Shown here piece after piece: positions 45,377 through 58,579 of a stretch of 58,579 bases of DNA. The first letter of the stretch is position 1. Every line of letters starts with the position of its first letter. The notes under the pieces were generated by a model. That model was not told the origin of the DNA. It saw nothing but the letters and a program-made list of their open reading frames with translations, and made no database searches. Origin of the DNA: Mycobacteriales bacterium (GTDB lineage: Bacteria; Actinomycetota; Actinomycetes; Mycobacteriales; CADCTP01). The DNA is taken from the NCBI GenBank assembly GCA_035995165.1, contig DASYKU010000090.1, positions 1 to 58,579 of the forward strand, read 5' to 3'. Position numbers and translations under genes: made by a program.

Positions 45377-45398
45377 CCGGTCTGTTCCAGCTGCTGTC

Positions 45399-46337
45399 CT
45401 AACGGGACAGTCGGCGGCGGAGGCGGAACGCCAGCGCCCGCGCCGCCTGCTTGGCCAGTGCCACCTTGCCCGGGTCGTTGTAGACGACGAACGTGCCGAA
45501 CGGGTGCACCCCGCGCTCGCCGGCGACCTTCTCCGCCGCGTCCTGAACCGCCCGCAGATCCGCCACGGTCAGCTGCGGCGGCAGCTCGTCGGGCTGGTAG
45601 AGCGCGGCGAACGGGTAGTCCCGGCCGGCCGTCCTGGTCATCTCGACGTGGCAGCCGAACACGTGCGTGACATCGCGCGCCTCGGCGAGCTCGATCATCC
45701 GCCGCAGGCTGTCCAGGAACGCCGGCATGTCCTCGACGAGCAACCGCCCCGGCAGGACGGTGTCGCCGGTGAGCAGCAGCCCGGACCAGGGGTCGTAGAT
45801 CGTCACCGCGGTGACGTGGTGGCCCGGGGTCCCGGTGATGTCCAGGGTCCGGCCGCCGAGCTCGAACCGGACCACCTGGGAGGGCCAGTCGGTGAACTCG
45901 AAGTACTGCCGGACCGAGTCCAGGTCGGTGCCGACGACGTCGGTGTACGGCCGGTCCGCGAACTGCCCGTCGCCGGCCCGGTGGTCGCCGTGCCCGTGGG
46001 TGTGCGCGACGACCAGCGGGTAGATCTCGCGCGGGTGGGTCGCCAGCCAGCCGGCGATCAGCCCGTCGACGGTGTCGCGCAGGGTCCGGTCCTTGGTCGC
46101 ACCGGTGTCGAGCAGCAGCGCCCGCTCGTCGCCCAGCAGCAGCACCACGAACGGCGCCTCGAACGTCACGTCCTTGCTCTGCCGGAGCAGGTAGGTGTGC
46201 TCGTCGTACGCGTGCACCTGGATCGGCGGGTCCGTCCGGACCCGGCGGCGGGGTGAGCCGTGGATCCAGGACACGTCCAGGTCGCCGTGGACAGGGGTGG
46301 GCCCGGCGAAGGCGCTGTCATCCATGTCGGACATCAT
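45399..46337 (-). CDS. Metallo-beta-lactamase-fold hydrolase
   Basis: This 312-residue protein has the MBL metal-binding motif HTHGHGDH, a downstream metal His in TPGHH and Asp in LLTGDTVLPG, and a final HVEM-type ligand region. These are the hallmarks of the glyoxalase II-like MBL hydrolases; the substrate is unknown. Three ATG codons (46337, 46334, 46325) are possible starts. The first is only 6 nt from the divergent epimerase start, so the two genes have almost no shared leader. Confidence 0.85.
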   Translation of the reverse strand: MMSDMDDSAFAGPTPVHGDLDVSWIHGSPRRRVRTDPPIQVHAYDEHTYLLRQSKDVTFEAPFVVLLLGDERALLLDTGATKDRTLRDTVDGLIAGWLATHPREIYPLVVAHTHGHGDHRAGDGQFADRPYTDVVGTDLDSVRQYFEFTDWPSQVVRFELGGRTLDITGTPGHHVTAVTIYDPWSGLLLTGDTVLPGRLLVEDMPAFLDSLRRMIELAEARDVTHVFGCHVEMTRTAGRDYPFAALYQPDELPPQLTVADLRAVQDAAEKVAGERGVHPFGTFVVYNDPGKVALAKQAARALAFRLRRRLSR

Positions 46338-52443: not shown

Positions 52444-52520
52444 CGCCGCCGGTCTGCCGGAGTCCGCTTGCACGACCTACGGCATACCTGCGTAACGCTC
52501 CTGCTCGACGCCGGGGGTGC
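52444..52520 (+). pseudogene. Tyrosine recombinase relic (C-terminal HxxR box)
   Basis: The 281-bp gap between the methyltransferase and GNAT genes contains a short stretch encoding LHDLRHTCVTLLLDAG, which is the HxLRHT active-site box of tyrosine recombinases (phage integrases). The frame continues on both sides without recognisable integrase sequence, and no start or tyrosine box is present. It is a fragment of a lost mobile-element integrase. Confidence 0.7.
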
Positions 52521-52573
52521 CTCCGTCTCCTCCACCGTCAGCTGGACCGCCGACCACGCCTCGACCGCCGGTG

Positions 52574-53036: not shown

Positions 53037-53462
53037 TCAGGCGCCGGTCAGGGCGGTAGCGAGGCCGAGCTCGGCGCAGGCTGCCAGCAGGTCCTTGTCG
53101 CCGCTGGCGACCACGAGGTCCGGAGCCTCGATCCTCTCGGCAGAGGCGCAGTGCACGGCGTCGTACCCGCGCAGCGCCTGACGGTCCACCAGCTCGGCGG
53201 CGCGGCGGGTCAGAACTTCGTCCACCTCGACGACGCGGAAGTCGCGCCAGAGGTCGCTCAGCGAGGCCGCGGCCGTCCGATGGTGCTCATCGGCGATCCG
53301 GCCCATCCGGCGGGCCCGGGCGAGTGCCGCGGCGGCCTCGAGGAACAGCAACCGTGAGGTCACCACCTCGTCGGCGGACTCCCACAGCTCCTGGCTCACC
53401 TCGGTGCCGGGCTCGGTGACGAGCAGCGGCACGAACGCCGAGGTGTCGAAGTAGACGATCAC
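53037..53462 (-). CDS. VapC-type PIN toxin
   Basis: This 141-residue PIN-domain ribonuclease shows all acidic residues: Asp6 (YFDTSAFV), Glu in LFLEAAAAL, Asp in LRGYDAVHC and Asp in SGDKDLL. VapC toxins cut tRNA or rRNA at specific sites when not bound by their antitoxin. ATGA at 53459-53462 couples it to the antitoxin gene upstream, the usual order. Confidence 0.92.
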   Translation of the reverse strand: MIVYFDTSAFVPLLVTEPGTEVSQELWESADEVVTSRLLFLEAAAALARARRMGRIADEHHRTAAASLSDLWRDFRVVEVDEVLTRRAAELVDRQALRGYDAVHCASAERIEAPDLVVASGDKDLLAACAELGLATALTGA

Positions 53463-53704
53463 CGTCGCTGCTCGGCCACGAGGTCGCTCACGGAGCCGTC
53501 GGCCGGCACCGGATGCGGCGTTCCCCGCCGGTGCCGCTGCGGCGGCCGTACGACGCCCTCGGCGACGAGCCGTTCCAGCGTGCTCGGACCGTCGACCGGA
53601 ACGATCCGCGCCACGGCCCGTCCGTGGTCGGTGATCGTGACGGTGTGCCCCTTGCGCACCTCAGCCAGGTGCTTGATCAGCGGATAGCACGCAAGGTGCA
53701 ACAT
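53459..53704 (-). CDS. Phd/YefM-type antitoxin with atypical N-terminus
   Basis: This 81-residue antitoxin of the VapC toxin that follows has a core HLAEVRKGHTVTITDHGRAVARIVPV that is typical of the Phd/VapB DNA-binding domain. The C-terminal half would wrap the toxin. The first eleven residues (MLHLACYPLIK) do not match the usual RELR-type start, so the DNA-binding N-terminus may be altered by a small rearrangement or the start misplaced. The gene sits 29 nt downstream of the DUF1801 gene on the same strand. Confidence 0.8.
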   Translation of the reverse strand: MLHLACYPLIKHLAEVRKGHTVTITDHGRAVARIVPVDGPSTLERLVAEGVVRPPQRHRRGTPHPVPADGSVSDLVAEQRR

Positions 53705-54180: not shown

Positions 54181-54274
54181 AGCCGGCAACGTACGCCAGC
54201 GGCCGTGCTGAGGTCGTGATCGGCGCGTCGCCCCGAGGGACGCACCGACCCGGCGCCGAACGCTCGGCGGCCGG

Positions 54275-54456
54275 CCGACGCGCTCGCGAGCACCTGAGCC
54301 GTCTTCGCGCCGAAGGGACAAGCGCGGGGGCGGCGGCCCTTGCCGAGCACCGCGGCGGTCCAAGGTCGAGGTCCAGGTCGTCCAGTGAGAGACCGGCCTG
54401 CTCGGAGAGGCGCATGCCGGTGTCCGCGAAGAGGCGCGCGAAACCAGACGCTCGGC
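54275..54456 (-). pseudogene. Frameshifted tyrosine recombinase relic (core region)
   Basis: On the minus strand one frame encodes FARLFADTGMRLSEQAGLS and DDLDLDLG (ATG codon at 54415). After a one- or two-base shift another frame encodes VLGKGRRPRACPFGAKTAQ. Together these are the arginine-I region and following beta-hairpin of XerC-like integrases. No complete frame remains. The gap 54181-54514 holds nothing else I recognise. With the fragment at 52444-52520 this brackets the GNAT, VapBC and DUF1801 genes. Confidence 0.75.
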
Positions 54457-54514
54457 GCGACGGGGCACGGCCGATCTGCGACCGTCGGCTGAATCCCAGC
54501 TCAGAAGGGGTATG

Positions 54515-54645
54515 TGCGCCCGGCAGGACTCGAACCGGCGGCCAAATGCTTAGAAGCCATCCGGCGCCCGACGCCGTGCTGACCAGCCTTGTTGCAGGTC
54601 GCCGCCGAGCGAGATCGCCATAGTTATCTGCTCGCTCAGCGATCT
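54515..54645 (-). repeat. 131-bp tRNA-Arg(UCU) 3'-half repeat, copy A
   Basis: On the minus strand the last 42 bases (54556-54515) read as the anticodon loop CTTCTAA, variable region, T-arm and 3' acceptor strand of a tRNA-Arg(UCU). The T-stem has one mismatch (GCCGG/CCTGC). The upstream 89 bases are not tRNA-like but are shared with copies B and C. The matching 5' half (GCGCCCG acceptor and D-arm) is absent, so this is not a functional tRNA gene. By hand alignment it is about 87% identical to copy C over 131 bases without gaps. It directly follows the antitoxin A gene. Confidence 0.8.
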
Positions 54646-54648
54646 ACG

Positions 54649-54936
54649 TCAGCCTGCTTCGAGGTAGCGGTTGATGGCGTCGCGGACCCCTGCGGTGGTC
54701 TCGGTCGGCAATCCGCTGGATCGCCTCGTCGCCTGATCGTCCACGCGGAGGTCGACCCGCTTGGAGTGGCCGGCCCGTCCCGACAGCGAGGGCCGGTCCG
54801 CCTGCCTGCGGGTCAGGGTGGCTGGGTCGAAGCCGGCCTCGGCTTCCGCCGCCAAGCGCTGCTCGTAGTCGGGGTCGAGGCGGGTTCCCGCCGTGGCGAT
54901 CATCGGCTCGTCGGCTGGCCGCCCTACTGTCGCCAT
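54649..54936 (-). CDS. Ribbon-helix-helix antitoxin homologue, copy A, internally frame-garbled
   Basis: This 95-residue paralogue of the antitoxin at 55954-56253 has a near-identical N-terminal region (AGTRLDPDYEQRLAAEAEAGFDPATLTRR), KRVDLRVDD and the end RDAINRYLEA. The helix pair between them is replaced by unrelated residues. The DNA still encodes the expected IQRIADRDHRR in a shifted frame, followed by a deletion that restores the original frame. Two compensating indels therefore destroyed the core helices while leaving an open frame. GAGGAGG precedes the ATG. Its expected toxin partner is missing upstream, replaced by a VapBC pair. It is probably non-functional. Confidence 0.75.
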   Translation of the reverse strand: MATVGRPADEPMIATAGTRLDPDYEQRLAAEAEAGFDPATLTRRQADRPSLSGRAGHSKRVDLRVDDQATRRSSGLPTETTAGVRDAINRYLEAG

Positions 54937-55013
54937 CTCGTCGCCTCCTCGTACAGGTGGCGGTGGTGCCCGGCTGGTCGGGTCCAGGAGTCTTCGAGCG
55001 GTGTTACCGGCGC

Positions 55014-55409
55014 TCAGAGGTCGACGAGCGCTAGGTCGGTCTTGGTAAAATCTTCGCCGATATACAACAGGGGCTCGTCGGCGAGGCGACTGATGGCATA
55101 CGTAAGGCAGTCACCGAAATTCAGCGCAGCCGGGTGTCGGCCCTTGCCGTACTGCAAGTATGCGTCGACGGCGACAGCCCAATGCTCGTGGGAAAAATCG
55201 ATCTGTCGCATCCCGCTTTCTTGAATAAAGCGCGCGAGCAGGGTCTTACCCGGTATACCGAGGCGGGCGGCAAGCACTATTCCGGTCTCAACCAGTGTCG
55301 GCGTACCTATGCCTGGCGGTTGCTGCGCGGTGGCGATGCGATCGAGCAACGCGTCCCAGCCCGGTTCGCGCAGCAGAATAGCCACCACGGCTGAACTGTC
55401 GACGATCAC
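55014..55409 (-). CDS. VapC-type PIN toxin
   Basis: This 131-residue PIN-domain RNase has Asp4 (MIVDSSAVVAIL), Glu in PTLVETGIVL, Asp in ALNFGDCLTYA and Asp in YIGEDF, the complete catalytic set. It overlaps the antitoxin gene upstream by 4 nt (ATGA). Pair and length match the VapBC group whose antitoxin resembles Rv0623. It lies upstream of antitoxin A and repeat A on the same strand. Confidence 0.93.
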   Translation of the reverse strand: MIVDSSAVVAILLREPGWDALLDRIATAQQPPGIGTPTLVETGIVLAARLGIPGKTLLARFIQESGMRQIDFSHEHWAVAVDAYLQYGKGRHPAALNFGDCLTYAISRLADEPLLYIGEDFTKTDLALVDL

Positions 55410-55678
55410 ACGCCCTCCGGACCGTATCCGAGGATGTCCTCCCTTTCGGTCTTACTCAGGGACGTACCGAGAATCTCTGTCGGGATCTGAGGCCACGCCT
55501 CCTCGCTGAGGAATCGGCGTAGGCGCTGAGCGCGACCGGCGGTGGTGCGGGTCGCAGTAAGGCGCGCCTTACGCTCCTGCAGGGCGATGTTGATGGCGCG
55601 TGTCTTGGTCTCCGCAGCCAGCGTGGCCACCTCAGCGGCGAGCTGTTCCGTCTCGAGGTCCTTGATGTTCAGCGCCAT
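55406..55678 (-). CDS. VapB-type antitoxin
   Basis: This 90-residue antitoxin opens MALNIKDLETEQLAAEVATLA, the Rv0623/PSK-type DNA-binding region seen in many mycobacterial VapB proteins, and ends with a toxin-binding tail (SLSKTEREDILGYGPEGV). It precedes its VapC toxin with 4-nt overlap. A perfect 14-bp palindrome lies 20 nt upstream of the start and is the likely autoregulatory operator. Confidence 0.92.
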   Translation of the reverse strand: MALNIKDLETEQLAAEVATLAAETKTRAINIALQERKARLTATRTTAGRAQRLRRFLSEEAWPQIPTEILGTSLSKTEREDILGYGPEGV

Positions 55679-55698
55679 GGTGTAAGGGTATCATCGGA

Positions 55699-55712
55699 GG
55701 TGTACGTACACC
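55699..55712. promoter_or_regulatory. Palindromic operator of the vapBC pair
   Basis: GGTGTACGTACACC is a perfect 14-bp palindrome, 20 nt upstream of the vapB start. Its position and symmetry suit binding by the VapBC complex. From 55713 to 55804 no gene is recognised. Confidence 0.75.
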
Positions 55713-55819
55713 AAGACATGACTCAACGTGCGTGGACCAGTGGCCCGCTCGAGCAGCGGTCAGCGGGGAACGAACGCCGCGCCGCGCACTGATCCATACA
55801 TCCAGGTCAGGGCGGTGTG

Positions 55820-55950
55820 TGCGCCCGGCAGGACTCGAACCTGCGGCCAAGTGCTGAGAAGCCATCCTGCGCCTCGCGCCGTGCTGACCGGGCTCTTCGC
55901 AGGTCGACGCTGAGTGAAACGTCGATAGTTATGTGCTCGCTGATGGATCT
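55820..55950 (-). repeat. 131-bp tRNA-Arg(UCU) 3'-half repeat, copy B
   Basis: This has the same layout as copy A, with an intact T-arm (GCAGG-TTCGAGT-CCTGC) and acceptor strand. The anticodon loop carries one substitution (CTTCTCA). By hand alignment it is about 85% identical to copy C, again without length change. A further 15 or so bases to its left (GTCAGGGCGGTGTG) match copy C. It starts 3 nt downstream of the antitoxin B stop, in sense orientation. Confidence 0.82.
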
Positions 55951-55953
55951 TCG

Positions 55954-56253
55954 TCAGCTTGCTTCGAGGTAGCGGTTGATGGCGTCACGAACGACGTCGC
56001 TAACTCGGCGGTTGTCACGCTCCGCGATGCGCTGAATCGCTCCGTACGTCTCATCGTCGACCCGCAGGTCGACCCGCTTGGAGTGACCAGCTCGCCCGGA
56101 CAGCGAGGGCCGACCGGCGTGCCGGCGGGTGAGGGTGGACGGATCGAAGCCGATCTCGGCATCATCGGCCAGTCGTTGCTCGTAGTCCGCGTCGAGCCGC
56201 GTGCCAGCCTTGGTGACCTCCGGCTCTTGCACGGATCGCTTCACTGTCGCCAC
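55954..56253 (-). CDS. Ribbon-helix-helix antitoxin, copy B (intact)
   Basis: This 99-residue protein has a C-terminal ribbon-helix-helix (KRVDLRVDDETYGAIQRIAE, then RRVSDVVRDAINRYLEA), the dimeric DNA-binding fold of CopG/VapB-type antitoxins. The N-terminal half (RLDADYEQRLADDAEIGFDPSTLTRRHAGRPSLSG) would bind the toxin. GTG follows GAGGAGG. It overlaps the broken toxin gene upstream, giving a toxin-before-antitoxin order. With its toxin damaged it may persist as a free repressor or an anti-addiction remnant. Confidence 0.85.
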   Translation of the reverse strand: MATVKRSVQEPEVTKAGTRLDADYEQRLADDAEIGFDPSTLTRRHAGRPSLSGRAGHSKRVDLRVDDETYGAIQRIAERDNRRVSDVVRDAINRYLEAS

Positions 56254-56526
56254 TTCTTCGCCTCCTCGTCAGGTCGTGGTAGCTGGACCGCATCCGCATG
56301 GCGTGGATGACTCGGATTCGTCCATCGGCTAACTCGACCCCGACAACCTCCAGTGCGGTGCCGGTGGCGTCGTCACCGAGGAACAGCAGCGCCTCGTCAG
56401 GCCTTGCCGGAGGGGCGGCCGGCTGGGCGAAGAACAGCCCGGCATTGTCGAGGACGTGGCGCACCTGGTCGCGGGACACCCGATGCTTGCGCGCACCGGC
56501 GTCCACGACAACCCGGAGAAGTCCAC
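56162..56526 (-). pseudogene. Small BrnT-like toxin partner of antitoxin B, frameshifted
   Basis: The protein in frame from about 56513 reads ARKHRVSRDQVRHVLDN, then LLFLGDDATGTALEVVGVEL and IRVIHAMRMRSSYHDL. This is the pattern of small BrnT/DUF4258-like toxins that pair with this antitoxin type. The family-typical start MDFSG is present at 56526 (GTG) but in another frame: one extra G in the GGG run near 56513 would join them. The start is leaderless behind a good promoter, so the gene was probably once functional. The reading frame also runs 92 nt into antitoxin B, suggesting a second change at the 3' end. A sequencing error is possible. Confidence 0.6.
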
Positions 56527-56532
56527 GGAGGT

Positions 56533-56561
56533 ATTATGTCGGACACAACCGGCGGGAGCAA
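56533..56561 (-). promoter_or_regulatory. Promoter of the toxin B/antitoxin B unit
   Basis: Minus-strand TTGCTC (56561-56556) and CATAAT (56538-56533) are spaced by 17 bp and the GTG at 56526 follows 6 nt later. This is one of the best consensus promoters in the window and implies leaderless expression. Confidence 0.6.
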
Positions 56562-56583
56562 CCGGCGGCGCGCGATCTGGGAC

Positions 56584-57756
56584 TCACACTCTGCAGGCGG
56601 GGCAAAGCCGCGGCTTGCGTCCGCGGGTCACCGCCCGCTCCCAGTGCGTCCCACAATTCTCACAGGTCAGAGTCTCTATAGCCGCCCGCGGTGCAGTATC
56701 CCGTCCGACGCTGCTTGTCGTGGTACGGGCGACCGGGCCTGCCAGTTTGGCTGAGTAGGCGGACACGCGCTTTCTCAGGTCTTCGACCGCGTCCGGCCGG
56801 GCCACGTCTTCGCCGTAGAGCGCCAAGCCCCGCTGTGACCAGCGTAGAGCCTCGGTCCAGTTCTTCGCCTTCTGCTGCCGGACTGCCATCTGGCGGTAAG
56901 TGTCCAGCAGGGGAATTACGCCGAACTTGGCCAGCAGTGACTCTCGGATGCCATCCATCTCCATATCGTGTAACGAACAGGCCTGGTCGTAGTCATCGAG
57001 GGCCGATGTGAAGACCTCTCGGGACTTGTACAGTCGTTCCTCAAGTTCGCAGTACATGAAGTGTCGGTCTATCGGATCCGGATCATCCTTCAACAGGTCA
57101 CGCAGTCGCGCGATAGATGCGACGTTGTCGCTTGGGAGGCTGCTCAACCACGACAGATCGTAAGAGTCGTCGGCTTCGTCGGTGAGAATGGCCTCGGTGA
57201 GTCCGGTCATGATGTTGCCGCGAAGCGTCCATGGCGCGGGCGGAACCACTACTTCGACGTCGAAGTCAGCGGGAGTGCAGTAGAGCCACACTCCTAGAAA
57301 GCCGAGTCGCCCGTCCTCGCGAAGTCCTCCGCCGGTCACAACTCCGTTCAACGCAACGTGAGCGCGATTCTCCTCGTACAGCTTTATTAGGCCAGCCCGA
57401 TAAGCCTGCGCGTCCTCGCGGCAGAAGTAGCCGACCTTACGGCCATCTATCCACACCGATATTGCATTGGGGTCATAGGGATTATCAGGCTCGGTTGCGA
57501 CGACCGCGAGGACATCGACTCGTACTCGTTCACTGTTCTGTCCGCCCACCACTCGCCATAGCGCCTCTTGATAGTTGCTCTCGCCCACGATCTCAAGGTC
57601 GTGACTTCCAGCGTGAACCACGTGGCGGTCAAAATAGGTGATCAAGTCCGTCCAACTCCGCGATGCCTGCCGGGCTTGAACGGCGACCCGTTCCTCACCC
57701 TCGCCGAAGAGCCGTCGCAGTATCCCCATCCCGCCATCATGGCTGTCGACGGACAC
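56584..57756 (-). CDS. HIRAN-domain protein with C-terminal zinc ribbon
   Basis: This 390-residue protein has a HIRAN-like domain at about residues 53-125 (LEIVGESNYQEALWRVVGG, then ATEPDNPYDPNAISVWIDG and KVGYFCREDA). HIRAN domains bind DNA ends or single strands in repair helicases and also occur alone in bacteria. An alpha-helical, TPR-like middle (about 200-330) and a zinc ribbon with CENC and CPAC pairs (about 365-388) follow. Codon use is distinctly less GC-rich than in the core genes, a sign of transfer. Start GTG at 57756 or ATG at 57729. It stands alone between TA units B and C and could be a defence or DNA-end-sensing protein; function unknown. Confidence 0.75.
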   Translation of the reverse strand: MSVDSHDGGMGILRRLFGEGEERVAVQARQASRSWTDLITYFDRHVVHAGSHDLEIVGESNYQEALWRVVGGQNSERVRVDVLAVVATEPDNPYDPNAISVWIDGRKVGYFCREDAQAYRAGLIKLYEENRAHVALNGVVTGGGLREDGRLGFLGVWLYCTPADFDVEVVVPPAPWTLRGNIMTGLTEAILTDEADDSYDLSWLSSLPSDNVASIARLRDLLKDDPDPIDRHFMYCELEERLYKSREVFTSALDDYDQACSLHDMEMDGIRESLLAKFGVIPLLDTYRQMAVRQQKAKNWTEALRWSQRGLALYGEDVARPDAVEDLRKRVSAYSAKLAGPVARTTTSSVGRDTAPRAAIETLTCENCGTHWERAVTRGRKPRLCPACRV

Positions 57757-57899
57757 TCATGTCCCAGTTTTGTCACAACGTCGATCCGTTGATCGGGCTT
57801 GCCAAAGACGCTTGTCGCGATCAGTGGGTCGGTCACGGAGCGCGGTGCGACGGGCCGACCCGCGCGACCAGCGAAAGGATGCTGGTCAGGGGCGGTGTG

Positions 57900-58030
57900 T
57901 GCGCCCGGCAGGACTCGAACCTGCGGCCAAGTGCTTAGAAGCCATCCGGCGCCCGGCGCCGTGCTGACCTGTGTGCGCGCAGGTCGCGGCTGAGCGAGAT
58001 GTCGATAGTTATCTGCTCGGTAAGCGATCT
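57900..58030 (-). repeat. 131-bp tRNA-Arg(UCU) 3'-half repeat, copy C
   Basis: This is the best-preserved copy: anticodon loop CTTCTAA (57941-57935), intact T-arm and 3' acceptor strand CGGGCGCA, then 89 upstream bases shared with A and B, including GATAGTTATCTGCTCG. The 5' half of the tRNA is missing. It starts 10 nt downstream of the VapC stop at 58041, in sense orientation, and has the left flank GTCAGGGGCGGTGTG in common with copy B. Confidence 0.83.
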
Positions 58031-58040
58031 TCCGATCGGC

Positions 58041-58454
58041 TCAGGTCGTCGTCAGCCGCTCGATCGGTTGGCCGGTGACATCTGCGATGATCTCGAAGTC
58101 CTTGTCGAGGTGCAGCACGGTCAGGCCGGCGAGTTCGGCCGTAGCGGCGATGATCAGGTCCGGAATCGACGGAGCCCGGTGTTGCCCCCGATCGGCGAGC
58201 AGTGTCAGCACTTCGACCGATCGGTCTTCGATCGCGGGTGTCTGGTATTCGACCGGCATGGAGGACAGCGGCGGCCGGCGCAGCCCGACCCGCAGGTCTG
58301 GGCCCGACCGGACTGAGTAGCCGATCTCGAGCCGGGTGATGGTGGCGATCCGGACGAGGCCGCGCTCGATGCGGGCGGCCCAGTCGGCGGCGTCCGGGCT
58401 CCCGGCGAGGCGGACCAGCGCTGACTTGTCGATCAGCCAGGACGTCAGTGCCAC
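58041..58454 (-). CDS. VapC-type PIN toxin
   Basis: This 137-residue PIN-domain RNase has Asp9 in [11 protein letters not shown], Glu in TRLEIGYS, Asp in [12 protein letters not shown] and Asp in LDKDFEII. The GTG start overlaps the antitoxin stop by 10 nt. It is unrelated in detail to the other two VapC proteins here, so the three TA units are different acquisitions. Its transcript would run straight into repeat C. Confidence 0.93.
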
Positions 58455-58579
58455 GCCTGGTCCATGACATCGGGGTCGGCCAGGTCCGCGGTGAGCTCGG
58501 CGAGTCGGGCCAGATCGGACACCGCGACGGAGGAGCCGGACACCTCGGCGTCCTGGGCGAGCCGGCGGCGCACGTACTC
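58445..58579 (-). CDS. VapB-type antitoxin, truncated by window edge
   Basis: Only the C-terminal 44 residues are in the window, ending PDVMDQAWH. They continue in frame to the last base, so the start lies beyond the window. Position directly upstream of, and overlapping, the VapC gene identifies it as the antitoxin; the visible tail is the toxin-binding part and does not show the DNA-binding family. Confidence 0.7.

Follow-up and report, generated by a model that had tools for sequence, protein, structure and literature searches.

The window considered here – the whole 58,579-nucleotide contig DASYKU010000090.1 (C90, last base 58579) of a Mycobacteriales bacterium, assembly GCA_035995165.1 – belongs to a genome of 5.37 Mb in 162 contigs (G000), and towards its end carries small toxin–antitoxin (TA) modules interspersed with copies of a 131-bp repeat, at 54515–54645 (copy 1), 55820–55950 (copy 2) and 57900–58030 (copy 3). 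The copies contain the 3' half of a tRNA-Arg(UCU) gene, read on the minus strand, and align without gaps: copy 1 is 87% identical to copy 3 (E = 4e-42) and copy 2 is 86% identical to it (E = 2e-42). A fourth full unit (copy 4; 85%, E = 4e-38) lies on another contig of the same genome, at G000:C56:16091-16226. The intact tRNA-Arg gene, with anticodon TCT, is found at G000:C56:14456-14529, on the same strand as copy 4 and 1.7 kb upstream of it.

Each unit thus has two parts, an 89-bp arm and the tRNA 3' half. Identity with the intact gene begins at CTTCTAAGC, nucleotide 32 and the first base of the anticodon loop, and runs to the 3' end; from that nucleotide onward copy 3 does not differ from the gene at all. 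An earlier, sequence-only reading of the window had described three gap-free copies of about 85–87% identity whose tRNA part starts exactly at the anticodon loop; all of this is borne out. The arm itself is 75–85% identical in any pair among the four copies (ungapped pairwise comparison), against a mean of 27–28% and a maximum of 48% for shuffled sequences, and about 20 bp beyond the tRNA end are also conserved (box CTGASCWGS). The unit is not called as a tRNA gene by ARAGORN, and its Rfam tRNA score is below cut-off. Open reading frames (ORFs) that run over the tRNA 3' halves (window 55632-55865, 57770-57993 and similar, with ARQDSNLRP or GRTRTCGQVLRSHPAP in their translations) are tRNA-derived annotation artefacts, not genes.

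The identity of the unit emerges from related genomes. Among 397 genomes of the order, copies that exceed the tRNA half are confined to one family; the sister-family survey comprised 74 genomes, one member being Blastococcus, and 76 genomes were covered by the scoring and integrase surveys described below. In three genomes – G370, G248 and G339 – the unit ends an integrase-bearing island with the order tRNA-Arg(UCU), P' arm, Xer-like tyrosine integrase, cargo, and P arm plus tRNA 3' half. About 85–100 bp separate the tRNA from the integrase of some 300 amino acids (frameshifted in G339), and the distal arm and tRNA half follow 3–21 kb further on. The arms at these distal ends align with those of the window, sharing the boxes GACCAGATAACTGTG, CGCTC, GACCTGC and GGTCAGCACAGCGCT, followed by the core. 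Because the terminal attR of the islands is homologous to the unit, arm included, the 131-bp unit is an attR composed of the attP P arm (the 89 bp) and the tRNA-Arg(UCU) 3' half. The sequence-only reading had taken the identity beyond the tRNA part to speak against one attB being used repeatedly; that was mistaken, since the 89 bp are the attP arm common to elements that use a single attB.

Two surveys of the 76 genomes agree with this identification. R1, a sequence-only model built from nine units, gives 94–118 bits on those units, which lie in five genomes (four in our genome, two in G240, and those in G370, G248 and G339), and at most 54 bits elsewhere; since the model derives from these nine units, they are bound to score high, and what is informative is the gap to everything else. 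The cognate integrase, at an identity of at least 82%, occurs only in G370, G248 and G339 (three of 76), each beside tRNA-Arg(UCU), with none in our genome or in G240. Three genomes drawn at random from the 76 would all belong to the five unit-bearing ones with a probability of about 1e-4. G240, Blastococcus sp. URHD0036, holds a second integrase-less stack with two full units, and was the sole match when named genomes were scanned for the exact pattern of the unit. Two further matches obtained with the arm alone (BLAST; G287:C3 and G240:C5) lie outside any tRNA context and were read as chance matches in coding sequence. Separately, degenerate tRNA-Arg(UCU) 3' halves follow the intact gene, with no integrase in between, at G291:C1:3988371-3990714 (at a distance of 2.2 kb) and at G077:C1:3478026-3478899 (0.8 kb); they are possibly remnants of older small elements.

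The DNA that follows each tRNA half indicates how the copies are arranged. In the attL of integrase-bearing islands, CTGACCWGC stands at +12, GCACAGCGCTC at about +54 and a GATAAC-like box at +71. The general form of the first box, CTSASCWGS, is present at +11 to +14 in 11 of 11 attL sites or inner junctions (ten perfect, one with 8 of 9 positions), and in perfect form in none of five terminal attR sites of other genomes, where 6–7 of 9 positions fit, no better than in shuffles. In our genome this first P' box is found behind the tRNA and behind each of the four copies, and GCACAGCGCTC recurs at +53 after the tRNA, +55 after copy 4 and, with one mismatch, +53 after copy 3, distances that agree with those in G370, G248 and G339; the inner copy of G240 carries the first box as well. 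Since a P' box follows each of them, copies 1 to 4 are inner junctions, at which the P arm of one element and the tRNA 3' half lead into the P' arm of its neighbour, so that every copy in this genome is an inner att site between stacked elements. Both arms are conserved with the integrase-bearing islands. The P' boxes had also been considered as an integrase promoter, a GATAAC-like box lying just before the ATG in G370; this was set aside, as these boxes recur in the P arm, and those at tRNA-Val islands stand far from the integrase start.

The array would span two contigs. From copy 3 to copy 2 there are 2.08 kb and from copy 2 to copy 1 1.3 kb; joining C56 to C90 would put copy 3 some 1.5 kb from copy 4. 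The order tRNA, copy 4, copy 3, copy 2, copy 1 is likely but unproven. The two contig ends overlap within vapB/vapC (window 58408-58579, G000:C56:17010-17181), which could represent either two VapBC copies or a join missed by the assembler.

The stacked elements measure 1.3–2.1 kb and consist mostly of TA modules; all four have TA genes next to the P arm. Copy 4 closes an element that encodes a methyltransferase and a BrnA-like antitoxin, with a broken BrnT-like frame as well. The next one carries a GNAT-like remnant (recognised by eye, no Pfam hit) and a VapB, both on C56, and, if the contigs join, also the VapC that precedes copy 3 in the window. In the element ending in copy 2, the HIRAN-like protein is accompanied by an antitoxin and a frameshifted BrnT-like frame, and in the one ending in copy 1 a VapBC pair is accompanied by an orphan antitoxin (Table 1). 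Among the ORFs scanned, the stacked elements contain no replication initiator and no FtsK-like transfer gene, and no phage genes were found. A protein search with the antitoxin in the genome contigs returned no relatives.

Table 1. Predicted features of the stack within the window, in order of position (percentages are identities; R1, model built from nine units)
Feature	Position	Strand	Evidence and remarks
Phd-like antitoxin and PIN toxin, outermost integrase-relic element	53037..53704	-	PF02604 E 6e-6 (just under cut-off); PF01850 E 1.5e-15
Relic of cognate tyrosine integrase, beyond copy 1	54257..54457	-	Two frames, with Arg-I region and LGKGRRPRACPFGAKTAQVL motif; N-terminus lost
P' box CTGAGCTGG after copy 1	54496..54504	-	
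Copy 1, tRNA-Arg(UCU) 3' half	54515..54556	-	
Copy 1, attP P arm	54557..54645	-	R1 117.5 bits
Orphan BrnA-like ribbon-helix-helix (RHH) antitoxin adjoining copy 1 P arm	54649..54936	-	65% to copy-2 antitoxin (55957-56253); no toxin partner seen
VapC-type PIN toxin	55014..55409	-	PF01850 E 6e-11
VapB-type antitoxin (Rv0623-like)	55406..55678	-	PF07704 E 2e-16
P' box CTGACCTGG after copy 2	55802..55810	-	
Copy 2, tRNA-Arg(UCU) 3' half	55820..55861	-	
Copy 2, attP P arm	55862..55950	-	R1 111 bits
BrnA-like RHH antitoxin adjoining copy 2 P arm	55954..56253	-	PF01402 E 2e-5; 84% to C56 copy, 65% to copy-1 antitoxin
BrnT-like toxin frame, C-terminal frameshift	56165..56506	-	PF04365 E 0.014 (weak); frame change seen against C56 copy
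HIRAN-like protein, 390 amino acids, C-terminal zinc ribbon, in the ~2-kb element ending in copy 2	56584..57756	-	PF08797 E 8.5e-5, just under cut-off
P' arm after copy 3	57838..57889	-	Box CTGACCAGC (57889-57881) at +12, box GCACCGCGCTC (57848-57838) at +53; positions as in attL of integrase-bearing islands
Copy 3, tRNA-Arg(UCU) 3' half, anticodon loop to discriminator base	57900..57941	-	Identical to G000:C56:14487-14528
Copy 3, attP P arm, 89 bp	57942..58030	-	79-83% to other own copies; R1 116 bits; homologous to terminal attR of integrase-bearing islands
VapC-like PIN toxin, element ending in copy 3	58041..58454	-	PF01850 E 2e-10
VapB-like RHH antitoxin, cut by contig end	58451..58579	-	98% over 43 amino acids to C56 copy

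An integrase that could have served these sites survives only as a fragment. The relic lies just past copy 1 and on the strand expected for it; tblastn with the integrases of tRNA-Arg(UCU) islands matches it at 71% over 21 amino acids and 41% over 51 amino acids (E 5e-6). PF00589 has no match on C90 or C56, and the genome as a whole has no intact cognate integrase. Two integrase relics had been proposed from the sequence, and the first of them is confirmed by its resemblance to the integrases of islands at the same tRNA; the second, a short frame at the outer edge (about 52468-52569, plus strand), has an HDLRHT-type motif that suggests a different type of tyrosine integrase, and no Pfam hit. 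In the cognate integrase a core-binding and a catalytic domain are recognised; its match to XerC (1.6e-37) is far stronger than that to IntI (4.9e-10), and every one of these matches falls below the curated cut-offs. A phage origin was considered and found no support: the best phage integrase is only 33% identical, and none was found in plasmids or viral contigs.

The arm belongs to a wider family. Directly behind tRNA-Val(UAC) in G169, G212 and G343, and behind tRNA-Met(CAU) in G339, G382 and G386, lie integrases that share about 50% identity with the cognate one. An arm and tRNA 3' half with a GGTCAGCACAGCGCT-type box accompany tRNA-Val(UAC) in G169 and G212 and tRNA-Met(CAU) in G339, G382 and G386, and in every case the copy switches to tRNA sequence at the anticodon loop. 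Our own genome has a related site on C78: the region G000:C78:44656-46968, with tRNA-Val(UAC), an eroded arm and tRNA-Val 3' half (45380-45501) behind it and a degenerate tyrosine integrase close by, looks like the remnant of a sister island. Outside the order, weaker but clear arm homologues (57–72 bits) with tRNA-Arg 3' halves occur in two families, and one of them, in G528, has the CTCCTAAGC half, as in tRNA-Arg(CCU). These homologues are located in G655 (C181/C182), G464 (C148), G528 (C2/C257) and G627 (C21), with two units each in G655 and G528.

These observations are best explained by integrase-less mini-elements, resembling cis-mobilisable elements (CIMEs), that accreted serially at tRNA-Arg(UCU), were probably integrated in trans and are now partly fossil, a reading to which we assign a probability of about 0.85. 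It upholds the earlier suggestion of a serial, cassette-like accretion of small TA elements at this tRNA gene. Related elements would have integrated one after another into a single tRNA-Arg(UCU) 3' half, by crossover in the anticodon loop, each newcomer restoring the tRNA and pushing older elements outward. As newer insertions would displace older ones in this way, each inner junction would come to read P arm, tRNA 3' half and the P' arm of the next-older element. The integrase acting in trans may have been that of a resident older island, left as the relic beyond copy 1, or one that entered together with the elements. On the putative order of insertion, ageing outward from the tRNA would fit the broken BrnT-like frames and the eroded P' arms at the outer copies; the TA pairs may have helped to keep the stack, which is presumably immobile today.

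Several points weigh against this account. C56 and C90 are unjoined, and their end overlap of 172 bp is only 93% identical. After copies 1 and 2 the P' arm is reduced to a single box, and the cognate integrase appears to lack a recognised arm-binding domain although the arm boxes are conserved. The only congener, G001, has contig breaks at this region, and no strain pair among those available shows a precise gain or loss of an element. Finally, an antitoxin gene is common to three copies, and some copies may stem from recombination between elements.

The closest competitor, to which we give somewhat less than even odds, is the decay of large islands: each unit would be the attR of a full integrase-bearing island shrunk by internal deletion, the classical route of CIME formation. 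It uses the same reading of the att sites, and decay in place may apply to some of the elements, so its likelihood overlaps with that of serial accretion. CIMEs have been described as decayed integrative and conjugative elements (ICEs) or integrative and mobilisable elements (IMEs) that keep attL and attR (PMC5704250), and the integrase relic beyond copy 1, the broken BrnT-like frames and the erosion of the P' arms after copies 1 and 2 would all be expected from such decay. Yet the P' boxes stand at exact spacing after copies 3 and 4 with no integrase adjacent, and decay would require several independent shrinkages to a similar 1.3–2.1 kb, each retaining the module beside the P arm – where TA genes are found in four cases out of four.

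A more far-reaching version of accretion in trans, which we regard as doubtful, would see here an integron-like cassette system. A Xer-like integrase without a recognised arm-binding domain would move integrase-less TA cassettes of 1–2 kb in trans, each ending in a standard P arm and tRNA 3' half, with an arm code common to sister integrases at tRNA-Arg(UCU), tRNA-Val(UAC) and tRNA-Met(CAU) across actinobacteria, and the arm found also at tRNA-Arg(CCU).

That the copies arose by segmental tandem duplication of one antitoxin–att block, through homologous recombination and later drift, is improbable, even though a homologous RHH antitoxin gene precedes copies 1, 2 and 4 (65–84% protein identity; repeat family D2), so that the repeated block there is longer than 131 bp. 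Copy 3 shares the arm and tRNA half alone, an unrelated PIN toxin taking the place of the antitoxin; homology ends sharply at the arm boundary in the comparisons of copies 1 and 2 with copy 3, and is lost sharply at both att edges. The possibility raised by the sequence-only reading, of a duplicated segment that includes neighbouring genes, therefore holds for the antitoxin at three of the four copies and fails at copy 3 and for the other genes between copies, which differ. Homologous arms moreover end unrelated islands in other genera and occur at other tRNA genes. Less probable still is a functional RNA or transcription terminator after TA operons, with the tRNA fragment incidental: the arm copies do contain inverted repeats (e.g. 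GACCTGC..GGTC), but the stems are broken in G370, G248, G240 and G339 while the box sequences are kept, an Rfam scan of the unit gave sub-threshold matches only and no family over cut-off, and the arm is met only together with a tRNA 3' half, in islands with a cognate or related integrase or in stacks.

How does the stack compare with known systems? In the passages of PMC5704250 that cite Pavlovic 2004 and Bellanger 2011, CIMEs and the tandem accretion of ICEs and IMEs are described as att-bounded elements, devoid of integration and transfer genes, stacked site-specifically at one target. The elements of the window are likewise att-bounded on both sides (P arm and core, with a P' box at every inner junction) and have neither integrase nor transfer genes; unlike CIMEs, these putatively mobile elements are only 1.3–2.1 kb long, consist mostly of TA genes and stand several in a row in a genome with no live cognate integrase. 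In Dehalococcoides, ssrA islands are arranged in tandem behind one RNA gene and bounded by repeats of its 3' end, and 15 of them have no integration module (PMC3146451). Those islands are larger and use a serine recombinase (PMC3146451), whereas in the stack the arm of 89 bp is conserved and the associated tyrosine integrase is Xer-like.

Chromosomal (super)integrons offer another parallel, being arrays of small, largely TA cassettes, each ending in a recombination site, and the cognate integrase here is Xer-like. In contrast to integrons, the site consists of an attP arm and a tRNA half, not a folded attC (no conserved, attC-like foldback was found in the arm), there is no IntI, and the target is a tRNA gene. 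Actinomycete integrative and conjugative elements (AICEs) combine a tyrosine integrase with a tRNA 3' end as attB; unlike them, the stacked elements have no replication or transfer genes among the ORFs scanned. Tycheposons also target tRNA genes with tyrosine recombinases, and some are cargo-only; they come from a different lineage. The process is a known one: it corresponds to the formation of CIMEs and to site-specific accretion, and the ssrA islands of Dehalococcoides are similar. What sets the stack apart is the near-cassette size of its elements, their TA content, the run of at least four of them and an arm code common to several tRNA targets; no account of such a stack turned up in a limited search of open papers.

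Site-specific accretion is thus seen at near-cassette scale. It explains stray tRNA 3' halves with long common flanks, which automated annotation reads as spurious ORFs. The attP arm code is recognisable, with GATAAC and GCACAGCGCT boxes to either side, and lets integrase-less elements be located from their ends alone; with this code the idea that TA modules may travel as independent, helper-dependent mini-elements becomes directly testable.

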